DNA of 30,370 nt from a virus: the IMG/VR virus record IMGVR_UViG_3300028430_000206, positions 1 to 30,370 of that record. The stretch is one strand, 5' to 3'. Below the pieces are notes generated by a model. It ran no database searches. It saw nothing but the letters and a program-made list of their open reading frames with translations, and was not told the DNA's origin. The position numbers were made by a program, and so were the translations under genes. Positions 1-11,558 of this stretch are shown here, in pieces (the first letter of the stretch is position 1; each line of letters starts with the position of its first letter).

Positions 1-162
1 AGCAGGAGCTGGAGCGGGAGCTGGAGCGGGAGCGGGAGCAGGAGCAGGAGCAGGAGCGGGAGCTGGAGCTGGAGCAGGAGCAGGAGCGGGAGCGGGAGCA
101 GGAGCAGGAGCGGGAGCAGGAGCGGGAGCTGGAGCTGGAGCAGGAGCAGGAGCGGGAGCTGG
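1..162. repeat. 27-copy hexanucleotide tandem repeat (AGCDGG)n
   Basis: Twenty-seven consecutive 6-bp units of the form AGC-D-GG occupy the window edge. Only the fourth base varies (A, T or G, never C) and the other five are invariant. On the + strand one frame reads alternating Ala-Gly with GCA/GCT/GCG then GGA, leaving the repeat as Ile-Phe-Lys-Asn and a TAA. On the - strand one frame reads alternating Pro-Ala with CCT/CCA/CCC then GCT, but a stop lies a few codons upstream with no ATG between. A third + frame reads Glu alternating with Gln, Leu or Arg, and stops at 186-188. The repeat may therefore be the 3' end of a + strand gene that starts outside the window, or simply the place where an assembly stopped. 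Confidence 0.95.
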
Positions 163-442
163 AATATTTAAGAATTAATTTTATTTGATTCTAGGTTTCT
201 TTTTTGTTTTTTAAATCTAAGACTGTGTTTTTTTGGAGTCTTATTAATTCGATGCCTAGCTTTATATTTAGGACTAGAATAGTGATGATCTGATTTATCA
301 AAATCCCAGTGCTTAGAATTTTTTTTAATCATAAATTATCTTAAATAAAATAATTAAAAATTAAGAATTGTTTTTTGTTGATTACATCTTTGGCCTAGGG
401 CAATAGTTATTAAGCAACAAGTCTAACATTTAGGAGTTGAAA
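163..442. other. AT-rich leader upstream of the recT operon
   Basis: About 280 bases with no convincing gene. It holds T-runs, A-runs and an imperfectly T-looped inverted repeat TAAGACT/AGTCTTA at 218-243, with a 7-bp stem and a 12-base loop. Because all genes from 443 onward run rightward, an early promoter is expected here. TTGATT at 378-383 could serve as a -35, but the -10 seventeen bases later (CAATAG) is poor, so no promoter is called. The last bases carry the ribosome binding site of the recT-like gene. Confidence 0.5.
218..243. other. inverted repeat in the leader
   Basis: TAAGACT (218-224) pairs with AGTCTTA (237-243) around a T-rich 12-base loop. No T-run follows the stem on either strand, so this is not a typical intrinsic terminator. 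It may be an operator or chance. Confidence 0.3.
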
Positions 443-3347: not shown

Positions 3348-3370
3348 CATCTCTTTAGTTGGGGGCTAGT

Positions 3371-3679
3371 GTGTCTGTAAATAAGATCGGGCTGACTGTA
3401 AAACAACAGCTCTTTGTTAATTTTTATGAGGGTAATGGAACTGAAGCCGCTAGATTGGCCGGGTATAAAGGTGACGATAATACTTTAGGACAGGTCGCCT
3501 ATGAAAATCTTCGAAAGCCTTTGATTATAAAAGCTTTAAGCTTACGGGGTTTAAAAAATTATCCTCCTTCAATGAGATCCTTTTTGACAGCTGTAATATC
3601 TGGCACTGTGAGTGAATCAGAAATTAGATTTGCTGAAGATTTGCTTGGCAACATTCGTGATTACGAGGCTTCTTTATGA
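3371..3679 (+). CDS. small HTH protein resembling terminase small subunit N-terminus
   Basis: A 102-residue protein. Its N-terminal 45 residues, beginning at LTVKQQLFVNFYEGNGTEAA and running through RLAGYKG, match the helix-turn-helix start of the Terminase_2 small-subunit group, which binds phage DNA at packaging initiation sites. The C-terminal half is unfamiliar and the protein is shorter than usual for that family (often 150-200 residues). GTG 3371 is preferred over TTG 3359 because a run of five G at 3361-3365 sits 5 bases upstream of it. It lies in the replication module rather than beside the large terminase, and a more complete small terminase is at 6901. It may therefore be a DNA-binding regulator or replication accessory instead of a packaging protein. 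The stop overlaps the next start (ATGA). Confidence 0.68.
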   Translation: MSVNKIGLTVKQQLFVNFYEGNGTEAARLAGYKGDDNTLGQVAYENLRKPLIIKALSLRGLKNYPPSMRSFLTAVISGTVSESEIRFAEDLLGNIRDYEASL

Positions 3680-4113
3680 GCGAAAAAGAACTTATCAACC
3701 TTGTTCAGTATTACTTTACTGAAACAGGAAACAGGATCTTTAGACAAAACACTGGTTTTGGCTGGGTAGGAAATAAATTCTTTAAGCCTCCGATGGAAAC
3801 CTCAGTGAGAATCACACCTCAAGATGTCATTATAAAAAACGCACGTCCTCTTCATGCTGGCCTTTGTAAAGGGAGCTCCGATCTTATTGGCTGGACGACG
3901 AAAACAATTACTCCAGACATGGTCGGTACTAAGGTCGCAGTCTTTACAGCTATCGAATGCAAGACTCTAGGGTTTAAAGCGAGCCCTGAGCAGATCGCGT
4001 TTATCAATGCCGTTCAAAAAGCTGGCGGCATCGGGAAGATTATTTATTCATTGGATGATTTAAATGAACAACGAGCAGAGACGATAAATGACAAACCAAA
4101 ATCAGAACTTTGA
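3676..4113 (+). CDS. VRR-NUC domain nuclease
   Basis: A 145-residue nuclease of the VRR-NUC branch of the PD-(D/E)xK superfamily, whose phage members process branched or recombining DNA. The catalytic pattern is visible: GSSDLIG with Asp69, then AIECK with Glu94 and Lys96, followed by SPEQIAFINAVQKAGG, the helix typical after the active site. The N-terminus carries an Arg-Gln-Asn-Thr segment also usual for the family. Its position between a recT-like gene and the primase suggests a role as phage recombination nuclease, possibly resolving junctions. It starts within the preceding stop (ATGA) and its last 26 bases overlap the primase start, so translation is probably coupled. Confidence 0.88.
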   Translation: MSEKELINLVQYYFTETGNRIFRQNTGFGWVGNKFFKPPMETSVRITPQDVIIKNARPLHAGLCKGSSDLIGWTTKTITPDMVGTKVAVFTAIECKTLGFKASPEQIAFINAVQKAGGIGKIIYSLDDLNEQRAETINDKPKSEL

Positions 4114-6343
4114 TTTTAAAGCGATCGCAGAACAGCTGCGTCCTCATATAAATTCTATTGTCTTTGATCTATGTCCAGGCGGCGAGATCAAGGGGAATGA
4201 GTACGTTGCAGCAAGTATCCTCGGCGGCAAAGGAACCTCATTTAGAATTAACTTAACCTCTGGCAAGTGGGCAGACTTTGCTGATGCGAACCAGAGAGGG
4301 CATGATATTATTTCTTACTATGCAAAATGTAAGAACTTAAATAACGGACAGGCCGCCAGAGAACTTAAGGAAAAATATCTTGGTGATAAACCTAGACCGC
4401 AGTTAAATTATCCGGTCGTTAAAAAAGAGAAGACCGCTTTGATAAAACCACCACCAAACGCGGCCCCTCCACAACAAATCCATTTAGGATCTGGGCCGAG
4501 TCATACATGGTGCTACAGGGATGGTCAAGGTGATCCTCTATTCTACATTTATAGGTACAATTTACCCGATGGATCTAAGGAGTTTAAGCCTTTCAGCTAT
4601 GATACCTCAGGCCGGTGGGTACAAAGAGCATGGCCTAGTCCAAGGCCTATATATAACTTAGATTTAATTCTTAAAAATCCTGACAAACCTATTCTTATTT
4701 GCGAGGGGGAAAAGGCTGCAGACGCTGCTATGAAAATCACGTCGGCCTATGTAGCAACGACCTGGCCGAATGGATCTCAGTCTGCATCTAAGGCTGATTT
4801 CACATCTGTCTATGGCCGCAAGATACTCCTATGGCCCGACGCTGATGATGCAGGGATTAAGGCAATGGCCTATATCGCCTCTCTGTTAGCCGATCATTGC
4901 GCCGAAGTTAAAATCATTGATACGGATAAATCGGACGGCTGGGATGCAGCTGATGCCTTATCAGAGGGTATGGATCATGCGGGCCTTATCTCATGGGCTA
5001 AGCCTTTAGTTCGAACTATTACAAAACCTCAGACCTATTCAAACGTTGAGGTCCTAGATCCTGAGCCTGCAAAACCAAGCAATCCAAACGAGCAGGCATC
5101 TGAGACTGAGGTTAAGGTCTCAAGAAATCTGACTTTAATGTACATCGAAGCAGGCCTTAAGCTGAATGAGAAAACCGGAAAGGTCGCCATCTCTTCAGAT
5201 AATATCGCAAAAATATTATGTTACATGGATGAGTTCAAATCTCACATCTGGTTTGATACCTTTCATCACAGAGTTTTTATGGACTGGAATGGCGAGCGCC
5301 GTCCTCTTAATGACATCTCATGGCTTCAGATCACGGCAAGACTTCAAGGGTTCTATGAGCTCACGACCTTAAAAAAGGATACCGTCTGGGATGCAATACA
5401 AATAGCTGCCTATCAGAATCCAAGAAACGAAGTGAAGGAATACATCACCTCTCACAGATGGGATCAAACGCCAAGGGTTCAGATGTTCTTTCAAGAGGCG
5501 ATGGGCGCTGAGGATTCAGATTATGCAAGAGCTGTATCAAGAAACTTCTTTATCTCTATTGTTGCAAGGGTCATGAATCCAGGTTGCAAGGTTGATACGA
5601 TGGTCATACTTGAGGGCGGCCAAGGGACGTTTAAATCCACATCATTAAAGATCCTAGCAGGTGACTGGTTCGCTGAGGCTAACTCATCCCTTGATTCAAA
5701 GGACTTCGAGCAAGGTCTTGTCGGTAGAATGATAGTCGAGTTCGGTGAGCTTGATCAGTTCAGGAAATCAGACTCGACCTTAATTAAGAAAAAACTAAGC
5801 TGTTCGGTTGATACCTACAGGCCATCATATGGCAGATCAGTTGTGGATATTCCAAGGACGTGCGTCTTTGTCGGCACCACAAATAAAGATAAGTACCTGC
5901 AAGATGAAACTGGAGGTCGAAGGTTTTGGCCGATCAGAGTTAAAGTCTGTGACATTGAATACATAAAGGATAACCGTGATCAGTTATTTGCTGAGGCTCT
6001 ATGGCTGTATGAACAAGGATGCACATGGCATGAGGTGCCTGATCAGGCGAAAGAAGAGCAAGAGGCTAGACGCGAGCAAGATCCATACGAGGAGTTAATA
6101 ATTAAATGGCTTGAGACTGGCAATCCTATGAAGCCATGGGAGGGCCGCAAAGAAAGATTCTCAACAACTGATGTATGGATAGATGGCCTTCAAGGTGATC
6201 CATCAAGGCTTGATATTAGGGCTCAGAAATCTATATCGAAATCTCTTAAGGCTTTGGGATATGAGCAGAGGTTTATTAAAAATACAGACAAGAAAGTTAT
6301 TAGGGTGTGGACTCAGATTTCTGATGAAACAGATAATTCTTAG
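4088..6343 (+). CDS. TOPRIM primase fused to VapE/D5-like helicase
   Basis: A 751-residue replication protein. Residues about 25-95 resemble the N-terminal DNA-binding part of phage primases (INLTSGKWADFADANQRGHDII) but lack an obvious zinc-finger Cys set. A TOPRIM domain follows, with ICEGEKAAD near 203-211 and LLWPDADDAG near 246-256, the acidic residues that bind metal in primases. The C-terminal half is a VirE/VapE-type helicase. Walker A is EGGQGTFKST near 509-518, then FGELDQF as the acidic motif, then VGTTNKDKYLQDETGGRRFWPI near 595-620, a strong signature of the family. The protein should both prime and unwind DNA at the phage fork. It ends with TAG, just before the repeat-rich region at 6344-6900. 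Confidence 0.93.
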   Translation: MTNQNQNFDFKAIAEQLRPHINSIVFDLCPGGEIKGNEYVAASILGGKGTSFRINLTSGKWADFADANQRGHDIISYYAKCKNLNNGQAARELKEKYLGDKPRPQLNYPVVKKEKTALIKPPPNAAPPQQIHLGSGPSHTWCYRDGQGDPLFYIYRYNLPDGSKEFKPFSYDTSGRWVQRAWPSPRPIYNLDLILKNPDKPILICEGEKAADAAMKITSAYVATTWPNGSQSASKADFTSVYGRKILLWPDADDAGIKAMAYIASLLADHCAEVKIIDTDKSDGWDAADALSEGMDHAGLISWAKPLVRTITKPQTYSNVEVLDPEPAKPSNPNEQASETEVKVSRNLTLMYIEAGLKLNEKTGKVAISSDNIAKILCYMDEFKSHIWFDTFHHRVFMDWNGERRPLNDISWLQITARLQGFYELTTLKKDTVWDAIQIAAYQNPRNEVKEYITSHRWDQTPRVQMFFQEAMGAEDSDYARAVSRNFFISIVARVMNPGCKVDTMVILEGGQGTFKSTSLKILAGDWFAEANSSLDSKDFEQGLVGRMIVEFGELDQFRKSDSTLIKKKLSCSVDTYRPSYGRSVVDIPRTCVFVGTTNKDKYLQDETGGRRFWPIRVKVCDIEYIKDNRDQLFAEALWLYEQGCTWHEVPDQAKEEQEARREQDPYEELIIKWLETGNPMKPWEGRKERFSTTDVWIDGLQGDPSRLDIRAQKSISKSLKALGYEQRFIKNTDKKVIRVWTQISDETDNS

Positions 6344-6617
6344 AATAAAGCCAACCTTCAGAATTAATATAGAATTCTGACTTTGCCAAGCTATTTAATC
6401 GACTCAATATAATTTGTTTATCTTCATCAGATTCATTTTTGAGTGATGTTATTTCCCAAATTGGTCCACGCTTACTCTTGTCAGCGGCCTGGATTATGTA
6501 CGAATACCACAGTGTGTTAATTAGTCTCATGCTTAATTTATCGGCATGTTTCTGAAAAAACTGTATGTGTGACCGATCCGTGACCGATCCGTGACCAAAT
6601 TTTAAAAGGTCACACAT
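6300..6617 (-). CDS. possible small minus-strand gene, unknown function
   Basis: A 105-codon frame on the minus strand, convergent with the primase gene and overlapping its last 44 bases. The part from codon 20 onward looks protein-like (LINTLWYSYIIQAADKSKRG, then a charged segment, then SEFYINSEGWLYSKNYLF), and the gap would otherwise be empty. The longest form starts at ATG 6617 inside the GGTCAC repeats, so its first 15-20 residues would be encoded by repeats. A shorter form starts at ATG 6530 and has 76 residues. Neither start has a clear ribosome binding site. I do not recognise a family. A regulator acting on the neighbouring repeats is an attractive guess, but nothing in the sequence proves it. 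Confidence 0.35.
   Translation of the reverse strand: MCDLLKFGHGSVTDRSHIQFFQKHADKLSMRLINTLWYSYIIQAADKSKRGPIWEITSLKNESDEDKQIILSRLNSLAKSEFYINSEGWLYSKNYLFHQKSESTP
6358..6380. terminator. weak hairpin after the primase gene
   Basis: TCAGAATT (6358-6365) pairs with AATTCTGA (6373-6380) around a 7-base loop, starting 15 bases after the primase stop. The stem is AT-rich and lacks a proper T-run (ACTTTG follows), so termination would be inefficient. It also lies inside the possible minus-strand gene. Confidence 0.25.
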
Positions 6618-6635
6618 AGGTCACACATAGGTCAC
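6569..6635. repeat. six facing GTGACC/GGTCAC half-sites with 11-bp spacing
   Basis: GTGACC occurs at 6569, 6580 and 6591, and its inverse GGTCAC at 6608, 6619 and 6630. Within each triplet the spacing is exactly 11 bp, about one helical turn, so all copies face the same side of the DNA. The left spacers are GATCC twice and the right spacers ACATA twice. The triplets face each other across AAATTTTAAAA (6597-6607). This looks like a cooperative protein-binding array such as origin iterons or a multi-site operator. Confidence 0.85.
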
Positions 6636-6674
6636 GGATAACTACGGTGCGTTAAGTAGTTGATTTTATAGTAT

Positions 6675-6703
6675 GGTCACGGAGTCACAGATAGTCACAC
6701 ATA
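6675..6703. repeat. third cluster of GGTCAC-type half-sites
   Basis: GGTCAC at 6675, AGTCAC at 6683 and AGTCAC at 6693, ending in ACATA. The cluster is a near-perfect inverted copy of the cluster at 6824-6853 and has the same three-site structure as the facing arrays just to its left, though with shorter spacing (8-10 bp). Confidence 0.75.
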
Positions 6704-6704
6704 A

Positions 6705-6733
6705 ATTATAAGATTTAAGAATTTATTTACTAG
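6705..6733 (-). promoter_or_regulatory. possible leftward promoter
   Basis: On the minus strand a perfect TATAAT lies at 6710-6705. The -35 region 17 bases upstream (about 6733-6728, CTAGTA) is poor. The predicted transcript start would fall at the third repeat cluster and lead into the possible minus-strand gene. This rests mainly on the -10 match in AT-rich DNA. Confidence 0.22.
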
Positions 6734-6823
6734 TGCTGTATAACGCCCCACGCTAACACGGTGCTCACGCCATAAAGCCGGTTACTGCACATGCATTCTC
6801 GTATTTTATTCCTATATGGATTT

Positions 6824-6853
6824 TATGTGTGACTAGTGTGACCATCCGTGACC
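6824..6853. repeat. fourth cluster of GTGACC-type half-sites
   Basis: GTGACT at 6829 and GTGACC at 6838 and 6848, preceded by TATGT. Read on the other strand it nearly matches the cluster at 6675-6703, so the two form a long inverted repeat around 120 bp. It ends 13 bases before the candidate -35 box of the small terminase promoter. Confidence 0.75.
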
Positions 6854-6866
6854 GTTTTTTTGAACC

Positions 6867-6894
6867 TTGAATTTTTGACTCACCTTGATACAAT
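6867..6894 (+). promoter_or_regulatory. candidate promoter of the packaging/structural operon
   Basis: TTGAAT (6867-6872) and TACAAT (6889-6894) are separated by 16 bases and resemble sigma70 -35 and -10 boxes. The next gene's ATG is only 7 bases after the -10 box, so transcription from here would give an almost leaderless mRNA. The fourth half-site cluster abuts the -35 side, a place where a bound protein could activate or block it. Confidence 0.4.
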
Positions 6895-6900
6895 TTTTGG

Positions 6901-7434
6901 ATGAATCAAATCGAGCGCGAGTACGACTTCTTTTCAGATCCAGATATGATAAACAAAATTTGTATATTTGTTGCTGAAGGCGGATCATTAATTGATGTTG
7001 CTGCTCTGCATCGCATTCGATACACGACCATTAAGAAATGGATAGAGCAAGATGCGTTAAAGCTTGACCTTTATAATAAAGCTCTTGAGGACCGCAAAGA
7101 ATGGGCGCGTGAAAGAATCTTGAAAGAGATCAGAGAGCTCTCGTTCTTCGATATCAGAAAGATCCTGGCCGATGATGGCTCAGTGCTGCCGCCAAAAGAA
7201 TGGCCCGATGAAATAGCTAAAGCTGTTGTCGGAGTCGATGTCGCCGACATGTTCGAAGGCAAAGGCCAAGAGCGCATTCAAACTGGCTTCATGAAAAAGA
7301 TTAAGTTCATCGATAAAGTTAAGGCCATTGAGATGCAGGCCAAGAACCTGAAGCTCTTGACTGAGCAGGTCGAGCATACTGGTAAGGTAACTCTTGACGA
7401 TCTTATTATGGATACGCAAAAAACTAAAGAGTAA
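6901..7434 (+). CDS. terS: terminase small subunit
   Basis: A 177-residue small terminase, which recognises the phage packaging site and loads the large subunit. The N-terminal 60 residues form a helix-turn-helix ([23 protein letters not shown]). The middle has the family hallmark: a helix ending [21 protein letters not shown], then [15 protein letters not shown], then a basic strand [13 protein letters not shown] that precedes the last helix. Length and order fit the podovirus small-terminase type. There is no recognisable ribosome binding site before ATG 6901 (preceded by ATTTTTGG). With the nearby promoter boxes this suggests a leaderless or near-leaderless transcript. It is followed by a small gene and then the large subunit, the normal order. 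Confidence 0.87.
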
Positions 7435-7453
7435 CCAAAAACAAGGAAGTCTT

Positions 7454-7591
7454 ATGCCTTTAAAAAAAGGAACATCAAAGAAAACAGTTTCATCTAATAT
7501 AAGAAAACAAATTAAAGAGGGTGTGCCTCAAAAACAAGCCATAGCCATAGCTTTATCAAAAGCAGGAAAGACCAAAAAAAAATCTAAGTAA
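7454..7591 (+). CDS. small Lys-rich protein, DUF6496-like
   Basis: A 45-residue, strongly basic protein, [19 protein letters not shown] followed by [18 protein letters not shown] and a Lys tail. The pattern of a Lys-rich start, a short helix, then [13 protein letters not shown] is that of a widespread small phage protein (DUF6496 as I recall) of unknown role. Its charge suggests nucleic-acid or capsid-interior binding. ATG 7454 is chosen because AGGAAG (7443-7448) sits 5 bases upstream; a longer in-frame start at 7394 lies inside the small terminase gene and is unlikely. Its stop TAA shares one base with the large terminase start, implying coupled translation. Confidence 0.82.
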
Positions 7592-9018
7592 TGAACTCAA
7601 CAGCGGTATTAACTAAATGGAGACAAGATCCAATCTCATTTGTGCGTGAGGTTTTTGGCGTTGAGCCAGATCCTTGGCAGTGTGATGTGCTTGCTGCGTT
7701 CCCAAAGAATCAGCGCCTTGCCATGCAGTCCTCAAAAGGGACAGGCAAGACAGCCCTATTATCATGGTGCGCGTGGAACTTCTTACTCACTCGACCTCAT
7801 CCCAAGATTGTTGCGACCTCGATATCCTATGACAACTTAGCCGATGGTCTATGGACTGAGATGGCCAACTGGCTGAATAAATCTCCACTGCTTAAGGCTC
7901 AGTTCGAATGGACCAAGACTCGGATATTCTCTAAGGATCATCCAGAGACTTGGTATATGTCGGCGCGTACATGGTCCAGATCTGGCGATTCAAACTCACA
8001 AGCGGACAGCCTTGCAGGTATTCATGCTGACTTTGTTCTCTTTGTCTTGGATGAAGTCGGGGGCATACCGGACGGCGTAATGGCTGCAGCTGAGGCAGGT
8101 CTTGCATCTGGTATAGAGACCAAGATCATTATGGCAGGTAATCCTACGCATCTTGAAGGTCCATTATATAGGGCTGCAACAAACGAGCGGCACTTATGGC
8201 ATGTGACTGAGATCACATCTGATCCTGATAATCCTAAACGCTCAACGAGGGTGTCTCTTCAGTGGGCTAAAGAGCAGCGTGATAAGTACGGCGCAGACTC
8301 TCCATGGTATATCGTAAACGTCTTAGGTAGGTTTCCACCTTCATCTATTAACTCATTGCTTGGTCCGCATGAGGTCTCAATGGCCATGCAGCGCGAGTAC
8401 CATGAAAAGGATTTCATGTGGTCTCAGAAGAGAATCGGTGTGGACGTATCAAGATTCGGGAGTGATCGCACTGTTATATTCCCGCGCCAAGGATTAAGGG
8501 CATTCAAGCCAGCCATCATGCAAGGTGCAAGGACTCAAGAAATAGCAGCCAGAGTCATGCAAGCTAAAATTAAATGGGAGTCTGAAATTGAATTCATTGA
8601 CGGCACTGGAGGTTATGGGTCCGGGGTTGTTGATCAATTAATTCAAGCCGGAGGTTCGCCATTAGAGATTCACTTCTCTGGTAAGGCTACAGATCCAGCA
8701 TACTTTAACAAACGCAGCGAGATGTGGTTTAAGATGGCTGAATGGATCAAGCGAGGAGGCGCACTTCCTAATATGCCAGAGCTTGCTCGTGAACTCACTG
8801 CCCCTCAGTACACATTTCAGAATGGGAAGTTTCAGCTTGAATCAAAGGACCTTATCAAAGAGCGGCTTGGTTATTCGCCGGATCTTGCCGACGCTCTGTG
8901 CCTCACATTTGCTTTGGATGAGGCTGCAGGATCTTTTGATCAAATGCTTATGAAAAAACCTATTCGACTAAAGTCCGAATATAATCCAATGGATTACGAT
9001 AAAGAGGTTGATTCTTAA
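7591..9018 (+). CDS. terL: terminase large subunit
   Basis: A 475-residue packaging motor that drives DNA into the prohead and cuts the concatemer. The ATPase domain shows Walker A SSKGTGKT at residues 47-54 and Walker B FVLFVLDEV near 145-153. The C-terminal RNase H-fold nuclease shows GVDVSRFGSDRT near 288, EFIDGTGGYGSG near 335 and SPDLADAL near 435, which together supply the acidic metal-binding residues. Length fits the family. It overlaps the preceding small gene by one base. Everything downstream to the window end is structural, so this gene marks the beginning of the late region. Confidence 0.96.
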   Translation: MNSTAVLTKWRQDPISFVREVFGVEPDPWQCDVLAAFPKNQRLAMQSSKGTGKTALLSWCAWNFLLTRPHPKIVATSISYDNLADGLWTEMANWLNKSPLLKAQFEWTKTRIFSKDHPETWYMSARTWSRSGDSNSQADSLAGIHADFVLFVLDEVGGIPDGVMAAAEAGLASGIETKIIMAGNPTHLEGPLYRAATNERHLWHVTEITSDPDNPKRSTRVSLQWAKEQRDKYGADSPWYIVNVLGRFPPSSINSLLGPHEVSMAMQREYHEKDFMWSQKRIGVDVSRFGSDRTVIFPRQGLRAFKPAIMQGARTQEIAARVMQAKIKWESEIEFIDGTGGYGSGVVDQLIQAGGSPLEIHFSGKATDPAYFNKRSEMWFKMAEWIKRGGALPNMPELARELTAPQYTFQNGKFQLESKDLIKERLGYSPDLADALCLTFALDEAAGSFDQMLMKKPIRLKSEYNPMDYDKEVDS

Positions 9019-9836: not shown

Positions 9837-11558
9837 ATGTATAAATCAAAACGTCATCATTTAGACATTCTTAAAAATCAATTAGACTCTGAAAGATCTT
9901 CATTTATTTCTCATTGGAGAGATATTTCTGATTATATACTTCCCCGCCGATCTAGGTTTAGCATTACGGAAGCAAATAGGGGCGAGAAAAAAAATCAAAA
10001 GATTATTGATTCAACTGCAACACTTGCAGCTAGAACTTTAAGATCTGGAATGATGGCAGGTATAACTTCACCTGCTCGACCTTGGTTTCGTTTGACTACG
10101 CCAGACCCAGACCTTGCAGAGTTCGGAGCAGTTAAAAAATGGCTCGATGACGTTCAAAGAATTATGGCCACGTCTTATTTAAAATCGAATCTTTATAATA
10201 TATTACCTGTTATGTATGGAGACCTTGGTGTTTTTGGTACTGATCCTGTTTCTATTGAAGAGGATTTTACTGGGGAAGTGATTCATTTTAAATCGTTTCC
10301 TGTTGGATCTTACATGATTGCGAAAGGTCAAAACGGCAGGGTAAATACTTTTTACAGAGAATTTAGAATGACAGTGGCTCAGCTTATTGAGCAGTTCGGC
10401 AAGGTTGATGAAAAAACAGGCAAGCCAGACTGGTCTAAATTTTCAGTTCATGTAAGAAATTTATATGATCAAGGGATGTATCAGTCTTGGATAGACGTGA
10501 CTCATGTTATCATGCCGAATAAAGACTATAAAAGAAACAATCCTTTTCCTAAATTCAAAAAGTTTATTTCATATTATTACGAGACCGGAACAAATTCCGG
10601 AATGGATTCCACATACGAAGATCGATTGCTTGAAGAGGGGGGCTTCGATTATTTTCCAATCCTATGTCCGAGATGGGAGACAACTGGTGAGGATGTATAT
10701 GGAACGTCTTGTCCTGGCATGGAAGCTTTAGGGGACGTGAAGCAGCTTCAGCATGGCGAGAAGCGAGTTATGGAGGCTGTTGATAAAATGGTCCGGCCTC
10801 CTATGACAGGGCCAACATCTTTAAAAAACTCAGCAGCAAGTATATTGCCGGGCGATATCACTTATGTTGATACAGTATCAGGGCAGCAAGGATTTAGACC
10901 ATCTCATGAGATCAACTTTAGAATTCAAGAAATGGAAATGAAGCAAAATCAAGTTCGAAGTCGAATTCAACGAGCGTTCTATGAGGACTTGTTTTTAATG
11001 CTTGCAAATACAGATAGAAGGCAAATCACAGCAAGAGAGATTGAAGAGCGGCATGAAGAGAAACTCTTAGCTCTTGGACCAGTATTAGAGCAATTGAATC
11101 AAGATCTATTAGATCCCATGACAGATATTGTTTTTGATATTCATGTAAAACAAGGTTTAATCCCGCCGCCGCCTCAAGAGCTTCAGGGTATTGATTTAAA
11201 AGTCGAGTACATTTCTATTATGGCTCAAGCTCAAAAGCTTTTGGGAGTTTCTGCTATTGAGAGATTTACAGGCTTTGCGGGTCAAGTCGCTGGGGTTGAT
11301 CCTTCGGTTTTGGATAAGATTAAAACAGATCAAATTCTTGACGTTTATGCGGATACTATTTCGCTTCCTCCTTCTATTGTTAGAACAGACGAAGAGGTTG
11401 CTGAAATTAGATCTCAAAGAGCAAGACAGCAACAAATGGCGCAGCAAGCTCAAATGGAAATGCAAGCTGCAAAGACGGCCAAGGATTTAAGTCAGACAGA
11501 TCTCTCAGAAGATAAGGCGCTCGGAGCAATGCTAGGCCTTGCGAATGCAGGTATCTAA
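9837..11558 (+). CDS. head-tail connector (portal) protein
   Basis: A 573-residue portal of the podovirus head-tail connector family. Twelve copies form the ring through which DNA enters and leaves the capsid. The start HWRDISDYILPRRSRF and the segment RTLRSGMMAGITSPARPWF are very characteristic. Next come the DLGVFGTDPVSIEE region and the stem/wing part, with YGTSCPGMEALGDVKQLQ near residues 288-305. The C-terminus is Gln/Met/Ala-rich and helical, as for the barrel or tail extension in T7 gp8 relatives. It directly follows the Gly-rich gene and its final A is shared with the next ATG. Confidence 0.95.
   Translation: MYKSKRHHLDILKNQLDSERSSFISHWRDISDYILPRRSRFSITEANRGEKKNQKIIDSTATLAARTLRSGMMAGITSPARPWFRLTTPDPDLAEFGAVKKWLDDVQRIMATSYLKSNLYNILPVMYGDLGVFGTDPVSIEEDFTGEVIHFKSFPVGSYMIAKGQNGRVNTFYREFRMTVAQLIEQFGKVDEKTGKPDWSKFSVHVRNLYDQGMYQSWIDVTHVIMPNKDYKRNNPFPKFKKFISYYYETGTNSGMDSTYEDRLLEEGGFDYFPILCPRWETTGEDVYGTSCPGMEALGDVKQLQHGEKRVMEAVDKMVRPPMTGPTSLKNSAASILPGDITYVDTVSGQQGFRPSHEINFRIQEMEMKQNQVRSRIQRAFYEDLFLMLANTDRRQITAREIEERHEEKLLALGPVLEQLNQDLLDPMTDIVFDIHVKQGLIPPPPQELQGIDLKVEYISIMAQAQKLLGVSAIERFTGFAGQVAGVDPSVLDKIKTDQILDVYADTISLPPSIVRTDEEVAEIRSQRARQQQMAQQAQMEMQAAKTAKDLSQTDLSEDKALGAMLGLANAGI

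Follow-up and report, generated by a model that had tools for sequence, protein, structure and literature searches.

A phased iteron array behind a VapE-like helicase-primase gene, a probable replication origin of tailed phages

Background

The type of replication start site considered here is best known from small parasites that hijack phages, the SaPIs and PICIs. In such replicons Rep drives autonomous replication and attaches to the iterons by its C-terminal domain, with an AEP-type primase that is either fused to it or separate. The origin of P4 has a two-part ori/crr design, in which crr is a second, distant cis site with the same repeats, and the phage initiator O of lambda has iterons, in the form of direct repeats, beside an AT-rich region and inside the O gene. 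In the PICIs two sets of iterons flank an AT-rich region 3' of rep, and the replicon was the subject of a plasmid test in E. coli (PMC6092414). The primases of SaPIbov1 and SaPI5 are of the AEP type, and the C-terminal domain of the SCCmec helicase Cch2 binds to direct repeats situated immediately 3' of its operon, according to PMC7581432. The P4 alpha protein unites a TOPRIM primase, a helicase and a repeat-binding winged helix in one chain, and the archaeal plasmid pRN1 has an essential region just 3' of the gene for a primase-helicase with a C-terminal winged helix, as set out in PMC4234260. Phage vapE genes are sometimes catalogued as putative virulence genes, as in PMC12860723. A search of the open-access literature recognised no description of a VapE iteron origin in a phage. 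The array described below, which lies directly after a VapE-like helicase-primase gene, is judged from sequence comparisons to be most likely the replication origin of its phage, of the initiator-specific iteron type and working like the origins of SaPI/PICI satellites.

Results and Discussion

The virus record and its genes

The window (the whole stretch of DNA analysed, 30,370 nt) comprises positions 1 to 30,370 of IMG/VR virus record IMGVR_UViG_3300028430_000206 and is a fragment. Its plus strand encodes, in order, recT, an HNH gene, a helicase, a small gene (3359-3679), a VRR-NUC nuclease and the helicase-primase (Table 1), followed beyond the array by terS (6901-7434), terL (7591-9018) and a portal gene (9837-11558; PF12236, E 1e-156); the window gives a large-terminase match and has small-terminase genes. 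The terS product matches terminase small subunits, and its gene starts 48 bp past the last site of the array. The terminase small-subunit models are split over two genes of the window, the N-terminal part falling on 3359-3679, which is missing from the relative L006, and the C-terminal part on 6901-7434. A minus-strand gene of 76 aa (6303-6530, MRLINT...), which has no match in Pfam or PHROGs at E 0.001, is kept in the relatives L006 (81%) and L007 (36%). At the left end of the window (2-188) there is a low-complexity reading frame, open on that side, with repeats of Q, E, R and L.

Table 1. Coordinates of the helicase-primase gene and of the parts of the array in the window
Feature	Position	Strand	Basis
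Helicase-primase of 751 aa (proposed initiator), with a TOPRIM/DnaG-type primase part, a VapE-like helicase and a C-terminal winged helix	4088..6343	+	Pfam, phmmer, AlphaFold2
Left module, forward iterons GTGACC at 6569, 6580, 6591	6569..6596	+	11-bp period
Left-module central spacer, 11 A/T bases	6597..6607	no strand	sequence
Left module, reverse iterons GGTCAC at 6608, 6619, 6630	6608..6635	-	11-bp period
Core origin (proposed), left arm: GGTCAC 6675, AGTCAC 6683, AGTCAC 6693	6675..6698	-	position kept in L006
Core origin (proposed), centre, presumed melting region	6699..6828	no strand	AT content
CTATATGGA box, just left of right arm	6812..6820	+	invariant in window, L006 and L007
Core origin (proposed), right arm: GTGACT 6829, GTGACC 6838, GTGACC 6848	6829..6853	+	site counts

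Structure of the array

The array (6569-6853) begins 225 bp past the stop of the helicase-primase gene and consists of 12 half-sites in four triplets, in the layout >>> <<< <<< >>> that the original prediction had given. The facing triplets of the left module, with their 11-bp steps and 11-base A/T spacer, are exactly as it had described them. It had counted twelve GTGACC half-sites, of which nine have this word and three read GTGACT (two on the minus strand, at 6683 and 6693, and one on the plus strand, at 6829), and it had extended the 11-bp phasing to every triplet, which holds for the two triplets of the left module but not for the outer triplets, or arms, where the steps are 8 and 10 bp on the left and 9 and 10 bp on the right. 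These arms, one entirely on the minus strand and the other entirely on the plus strand, read outward over a centre of 130 bp.

From its sequence the array is real and functional-looking. The whole window contains 16 copies of GTGACC versus 5.75 expected, a number reached by none of 100 shuffles; nine of the 16 fall within 285 bp, and the other seven are scattered singles within this record fragment. Nine copies of one 6-mer compare with a maximum of five in 1000 dinucleotide shuffles of the region, both strands being taken together. An open frame on the minus strand (6300-6617) overlaps the left triplet, but its conserved part stops near 6530, outside the array, so that the repeats do not appear to be part of a coding gene. 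The AT enrichment of the centre is mild in the window itself (0.63 versus 0.59 for the window, with a best 30-bp stretch of 0.90; null p 0.02), and among 28 hand-placed origins the centre was AT-richer than its record in 26. Boxes resembling CTATATGGA were found in 14 of the 28 hand-placed origins versus a background of 2%, with a pattern that was chosen after looking. A GTGCGTTAAGTA-like stretch is present at 6648-6660 of the window and also in L006, and a related inverted form, GCGCATCAAcTACTTAGC, occurs in the centres of L006 and L007.

The VapE helicase-primase

The helicase-primase matches the Pfam family VapE-like_dom (PF05272, E 1e-71), and its closest solved structure is 7pds_A (phmmer E 7.3e-44; VIA-align Z 31.4 over 390 residues, 349-747), entitled 'The structure of PriRep1 with dsDNA', in which the molecule is named 'Similar to D. 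nodosus vapE'. The N-terminal part matches TOPRIM primases of the T7/DnaG type (T7 primase 1q57_A, VIA-align Z 14.6, model residues 116-312). In the AlphaFold2 model of the protein (mean pLDDT 82.5), the C-terminus has the order H-H-H-E-E, three helices and two strands, which is that of a winged helix. The C-terminal model alone gave modest structural matches, nearly all of them to winged-helix DNA binders (Z up to 6.4), and no Foldseek match at E <= 0.001. The helicase-primase itself is supported as the candidate binder that goes with the array, as the comparisons between phages described in the following sections suggest.

Conservation of the layout and concerted change of the word

The array is kept in relatives of the phage. 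The GTGACC set is common to L003, L004 and L005, and L004 is letter-identical over 600 bases past the gene. L006, whose VapE is 81% identical, has the same arms with the word GTGTACA, at offsets from VapE that are nearly those of the window, and in L007 (VapE 62%) and L011 (VapE 47%) the layout is kept with the word GTAGAC. Between the window, L006 and L007 the word changes at nearly every site together, with zero occurrences of GTGACC in the arrays of L006 and L007, and single-copy stretches in the gap, such as CTATATGGA, are unaltered in all three. The layout deviates in that L006 has two left forward words instead of three, with spacings there of 21 and 7 bp, and in that the array of L007 is without the left reverse triplet.

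L006 and the window differ by a sharp mosaic exchange (L006 2039-7600 versus window 3359-9018), a block of approximately 80% identity that runs from VRR-NUC into the first part of terL: the flanks are nearly identical (99.8% for both the upstream helicase and the portal), whereas the exchanged block has identities of 77% (VRR-NUC), 81% (VapE), 81% (minus-strand gene), 83% (TerS) and 90% (TerL). Thus, the word of the array changed inside a swapped block that includes VapE, and L006 is, to judge from these identities, a natural swap of the word along with the VapE block. L006 has an additional HNH-like gene between terS and terL. In L072 two words, TTGGGAA and TTAGGAA, are found in one origin region (+2..+230 after VapE), perhaps a word change caught midway.

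Covariation of the word with regions of VapE

Words were assigned, partly by hand, for 34 phages: GTGACC, GTGTAC, GTAGAC, GTAACA, GTGGCT, GTGGTA, GGTAAC, GGCGAG, GTTGTA, GTGCCG, GTTAGG, TTAGGA, TGGACA, TGGACG, AGGTTG, AGGTCG, GGTCGG, GGCAAG, GGTTAC, CGGGAC, TGGAAC and GGGACA. Distance between words correlates with distance between VapE proteins over residues 691-748 (rho 0.36) and 345-450 (rho 0.39), with partial r, given helicase distance, of 0.31 and 0.36, respectively (p 0.0005 each), whereas the primase part (residues 1-300) gives a partial r of -0.02 (p 0.58). Each of the two regions keeps signal given the other (0.17 for 691-748 and 0.25 for 345-450), and windows at about residues 571-650 correlate too, given the C-terminus, although more weakly. 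The covariation weakens as clades are collapsed, to partial r values of 0.22 (p 0.006) for the C-terminus and 0.24 for residues 345-450 with n=21, and of 0.17 (p 0.052) and 0.19 (p 0.030) with n=17; residues 345-450 perform no worse than the C-terminus. The recognition helix is nearly identical in the window and L006 despite their differing words; the wing and the edges of the helix differ. In these comparisons word similarity goes with the C-terminal winged helix and with residues 345-450 and does not follow the primase part, and the most likely reading is a rapid joint turnover of the word and its putative reader.

Linkage of the array to VapE

An alignment of VapE proteins was used to take 80 viral loci from a larger number. 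Together with the window and three earlier loci this gave 84 (the window, L008, L014, L024 and L046-L125); 24 without the VapE C-terminus were removed, leaving 60, and exclusion of eight near-duplicates (leaving 52) and of the short L054 gave 51 non-redundant loci. At 25 of the 51 loci no other segment of the record has a two-strand 6-mer cluster as dense as the one directly after VapE, versus about five expected if segments were equal. The corresponding figure was 24 of 51 with 7-mers, and 23 of 51 with a looser score, by which the window itself is beaten by a coding repeat at its left end. A strict core pattern, fixed before the control run, was defined as a direct 6-mer pair 8-12 bp apart, an interval of 40-230 bp and the inverted pair, and was sought in 56 segments, namely the 51 loci plus five cultured phages (Haddon was omitted as a near copy of LPPA36). 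It follows VapE in 26 of the 56, with many different words, versus three of 529 segments taken as controls from the same records, the segments and records not being fully independent; some of the 30 segments without a strict core have arrays by the looser test. Arrays are present in the cultured phages LPPA36, Haddon, Aval and VarioGold, and none was seen after VapE in Mica and BT638P6. In bacterial genome contigs the strict core was found at four of eight VapE loci (two of the four being the L113 hit) versus none of 70 controls.

TOPRIM-only relatives with other helicases have the core in nine of 90 cases versus five of 732 controls, which makes the pattern wider than VapE and not exclusive to it. 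The primase-only relatives with a core after the gene are L148, L153, L156, L169, L182, L190, L198, L122 and L123, and their words include TGTCAC, GGGTTA and CCGACA. The GTCCACA repeats of L027 and L028 were set aside, being direct repeats in a reading frame with no VapE nearby.

The portal family PF12236 was detected in 13 of 24 records versus none of 14 controls, and ten of the 13 are array-bearing (L059, L060 and L067 are not listed as such). A search with the large-terminase family phrog_2 matched 11 of 29 records and was not used as evidence because the family also matches 11 of 14 control genomes. The Xanthomonas phages of the CP2 group, the nearest named relatives by TerL (51-52%), have no VapE by tblastn in the stretches examined and no core before terL.

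Of the two roles that had been put forward for the array, these results support replication initiation beside the primase but not control of the late operon. An operator array, bound by a phage regulator and governing either the late operon from terS onward or the divergent minus-strand gene, is unlikely: it would suit the location between the minus-strand gene and the late genes and the TATAT-containing box before terS, but among 33 other array-bearing loci with 1-10 kb available downstream, a terS relative was found in nine and the minus-strand gene in two, the array staying after VapE where they are not found, and the word tracks regions of VapE. Binding of VapE may nevertheless have a transcriptional role as a side effect. 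A still poorer prospect is that the small terminase binds the array as a packaging site (cos or pac), although its gene begins so close downstream and accompanies the array in L006, L007 and L011; the scarcity of terS among the 33 loci argues against it, as do L014, where terS lies approximately 1.5 kb past VapE and the array stays beside VapE, and the lack of any core upstream of terS or terL genes lying away from VapE (none of six and none of 15 loci, respectively; L012 and L013 are near copies). Arrays phased in this way are also found at centromeres, but a partition centromere or other structural array unrelated to initiation is extremely improbable here, as the linked protein is a helicase-primase and no ParA/ParB-type protein was among 20 proteins scanned with Pfam (10 from the window and 10 from the relative G001).

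The same distributions bear on the binder, for which the original prediction had proposed three other gene products. All three were rejected on locus distribution: the 3359 gene (named there by position 3371) is absent by tblastn from L006, L007 and L011, all of which have the array, and the minus-strand gene and terS fail by the counts in the 33 loci. As far as these loci can tell, the array is tied to VapE and to neither the terminase nor the minus-strand gene.

Proposed origin and mechanism

If the array is the replication origin, the C-terminal winged helix of the helicase-primase would bind the GTGAC(C/T) words, and copies of the protein on the two outward arms would load helicase rings that face one another from either side of the centre, where the AT-rich DNA would melt and the TOPRIM part of the same protein could make the first primers. 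The palindromic left module (>>> 11 bp <<<), lying inside the array, might, at a guess, add binding capacity or provide self-limitation by handcuffing or repression. Since the word and the winged helix change together, each phage origin would answer to its own initiator. GC skew, suggested earlier as a check for an origin, proved uninformative because the cumulative skew falls steadily, with no turn near the array, in two long relatives, G001 (41,376 bp) and G003 (42,185 bp). The latter terminates in a direct repeat of 127 bp, a feature that complete records may show.

Such a mechanism is of a known kind in an unexpected carrier, namely tailed phages, several of which have their own portal and terminase. 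If the proposal is true, SaPI/PICI-like origins are common in free phages, which bears on the source of satellite replicons. A broader reading, to which slightly less than an even chance is given, is that ordinary tailed phages widely replicate by initiator-origin pairs of the SaPI/PICI type, which would then not be a distinguishing mark of satellites, the satellites having acquired their replicons from the pool present in phages. On this reading the winged helix and the word would act as lock and key in an exchangeable cassette, both turning over rapidly together and giving each phage a private origin, perhaps as an escape from origin theft by satellites and co-infecting phages. The differing words beside related winged helices are a ready data set for how such domains read DNA, and this set yields predictions of the phage origins that a given initiator would be able to fire. 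For annotation, vapE in these phages looks, from its sequence context, like a replication initiator rather than a virulence gene.

Comparison with known systems

The SaPI/PICI origins are the closest to the array. A helicase of the VapE/Rep type is the closest solved structure to the window protein; two sets of iterons lie around an AT-rich region immediately beyond the 3' end of the initiator gene, in the same order as in the window, as PMC6092414 describes for PICIs; the words of the window and its relatives may likewise be specific to their initiators, to judge from the concerted change of the word and its covariation with regions of VapE; and terS lies further downstream, as in some PICIs. 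Unlike these satellites, the window carries its own large terminase, portal and terminase genes, and so is not a satellite; its primase part is of the TOPRIM type, not the AEP type reported for SaPIs in PMC7581432; and its array has the additional palindromic triplet module. P4 alpha, as characterised in the source cited for it above, likewise joins a TOPRIM primase, a helicase and a C-terminal winged helix, but the helicase of the window protein is VapE-like. SCCmec Cch2 is similar in being a helicase with repeats directly downstream as a putative origin, and differs in having three 5-nt iterons and a separate polymerase-type primase and in belonging to a cassette, not a phage. The pRN1 plasmid shares an essential region downstream of a primase-helicase with a C-terminal winged helix but uses a large stem-loop instead of iterons. 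The lambda-type O origin also has a phage initiator and iterons by an AT-rich region, whereas the array of the window lies outside the initiator gene, past its stop, and has inverted arms.
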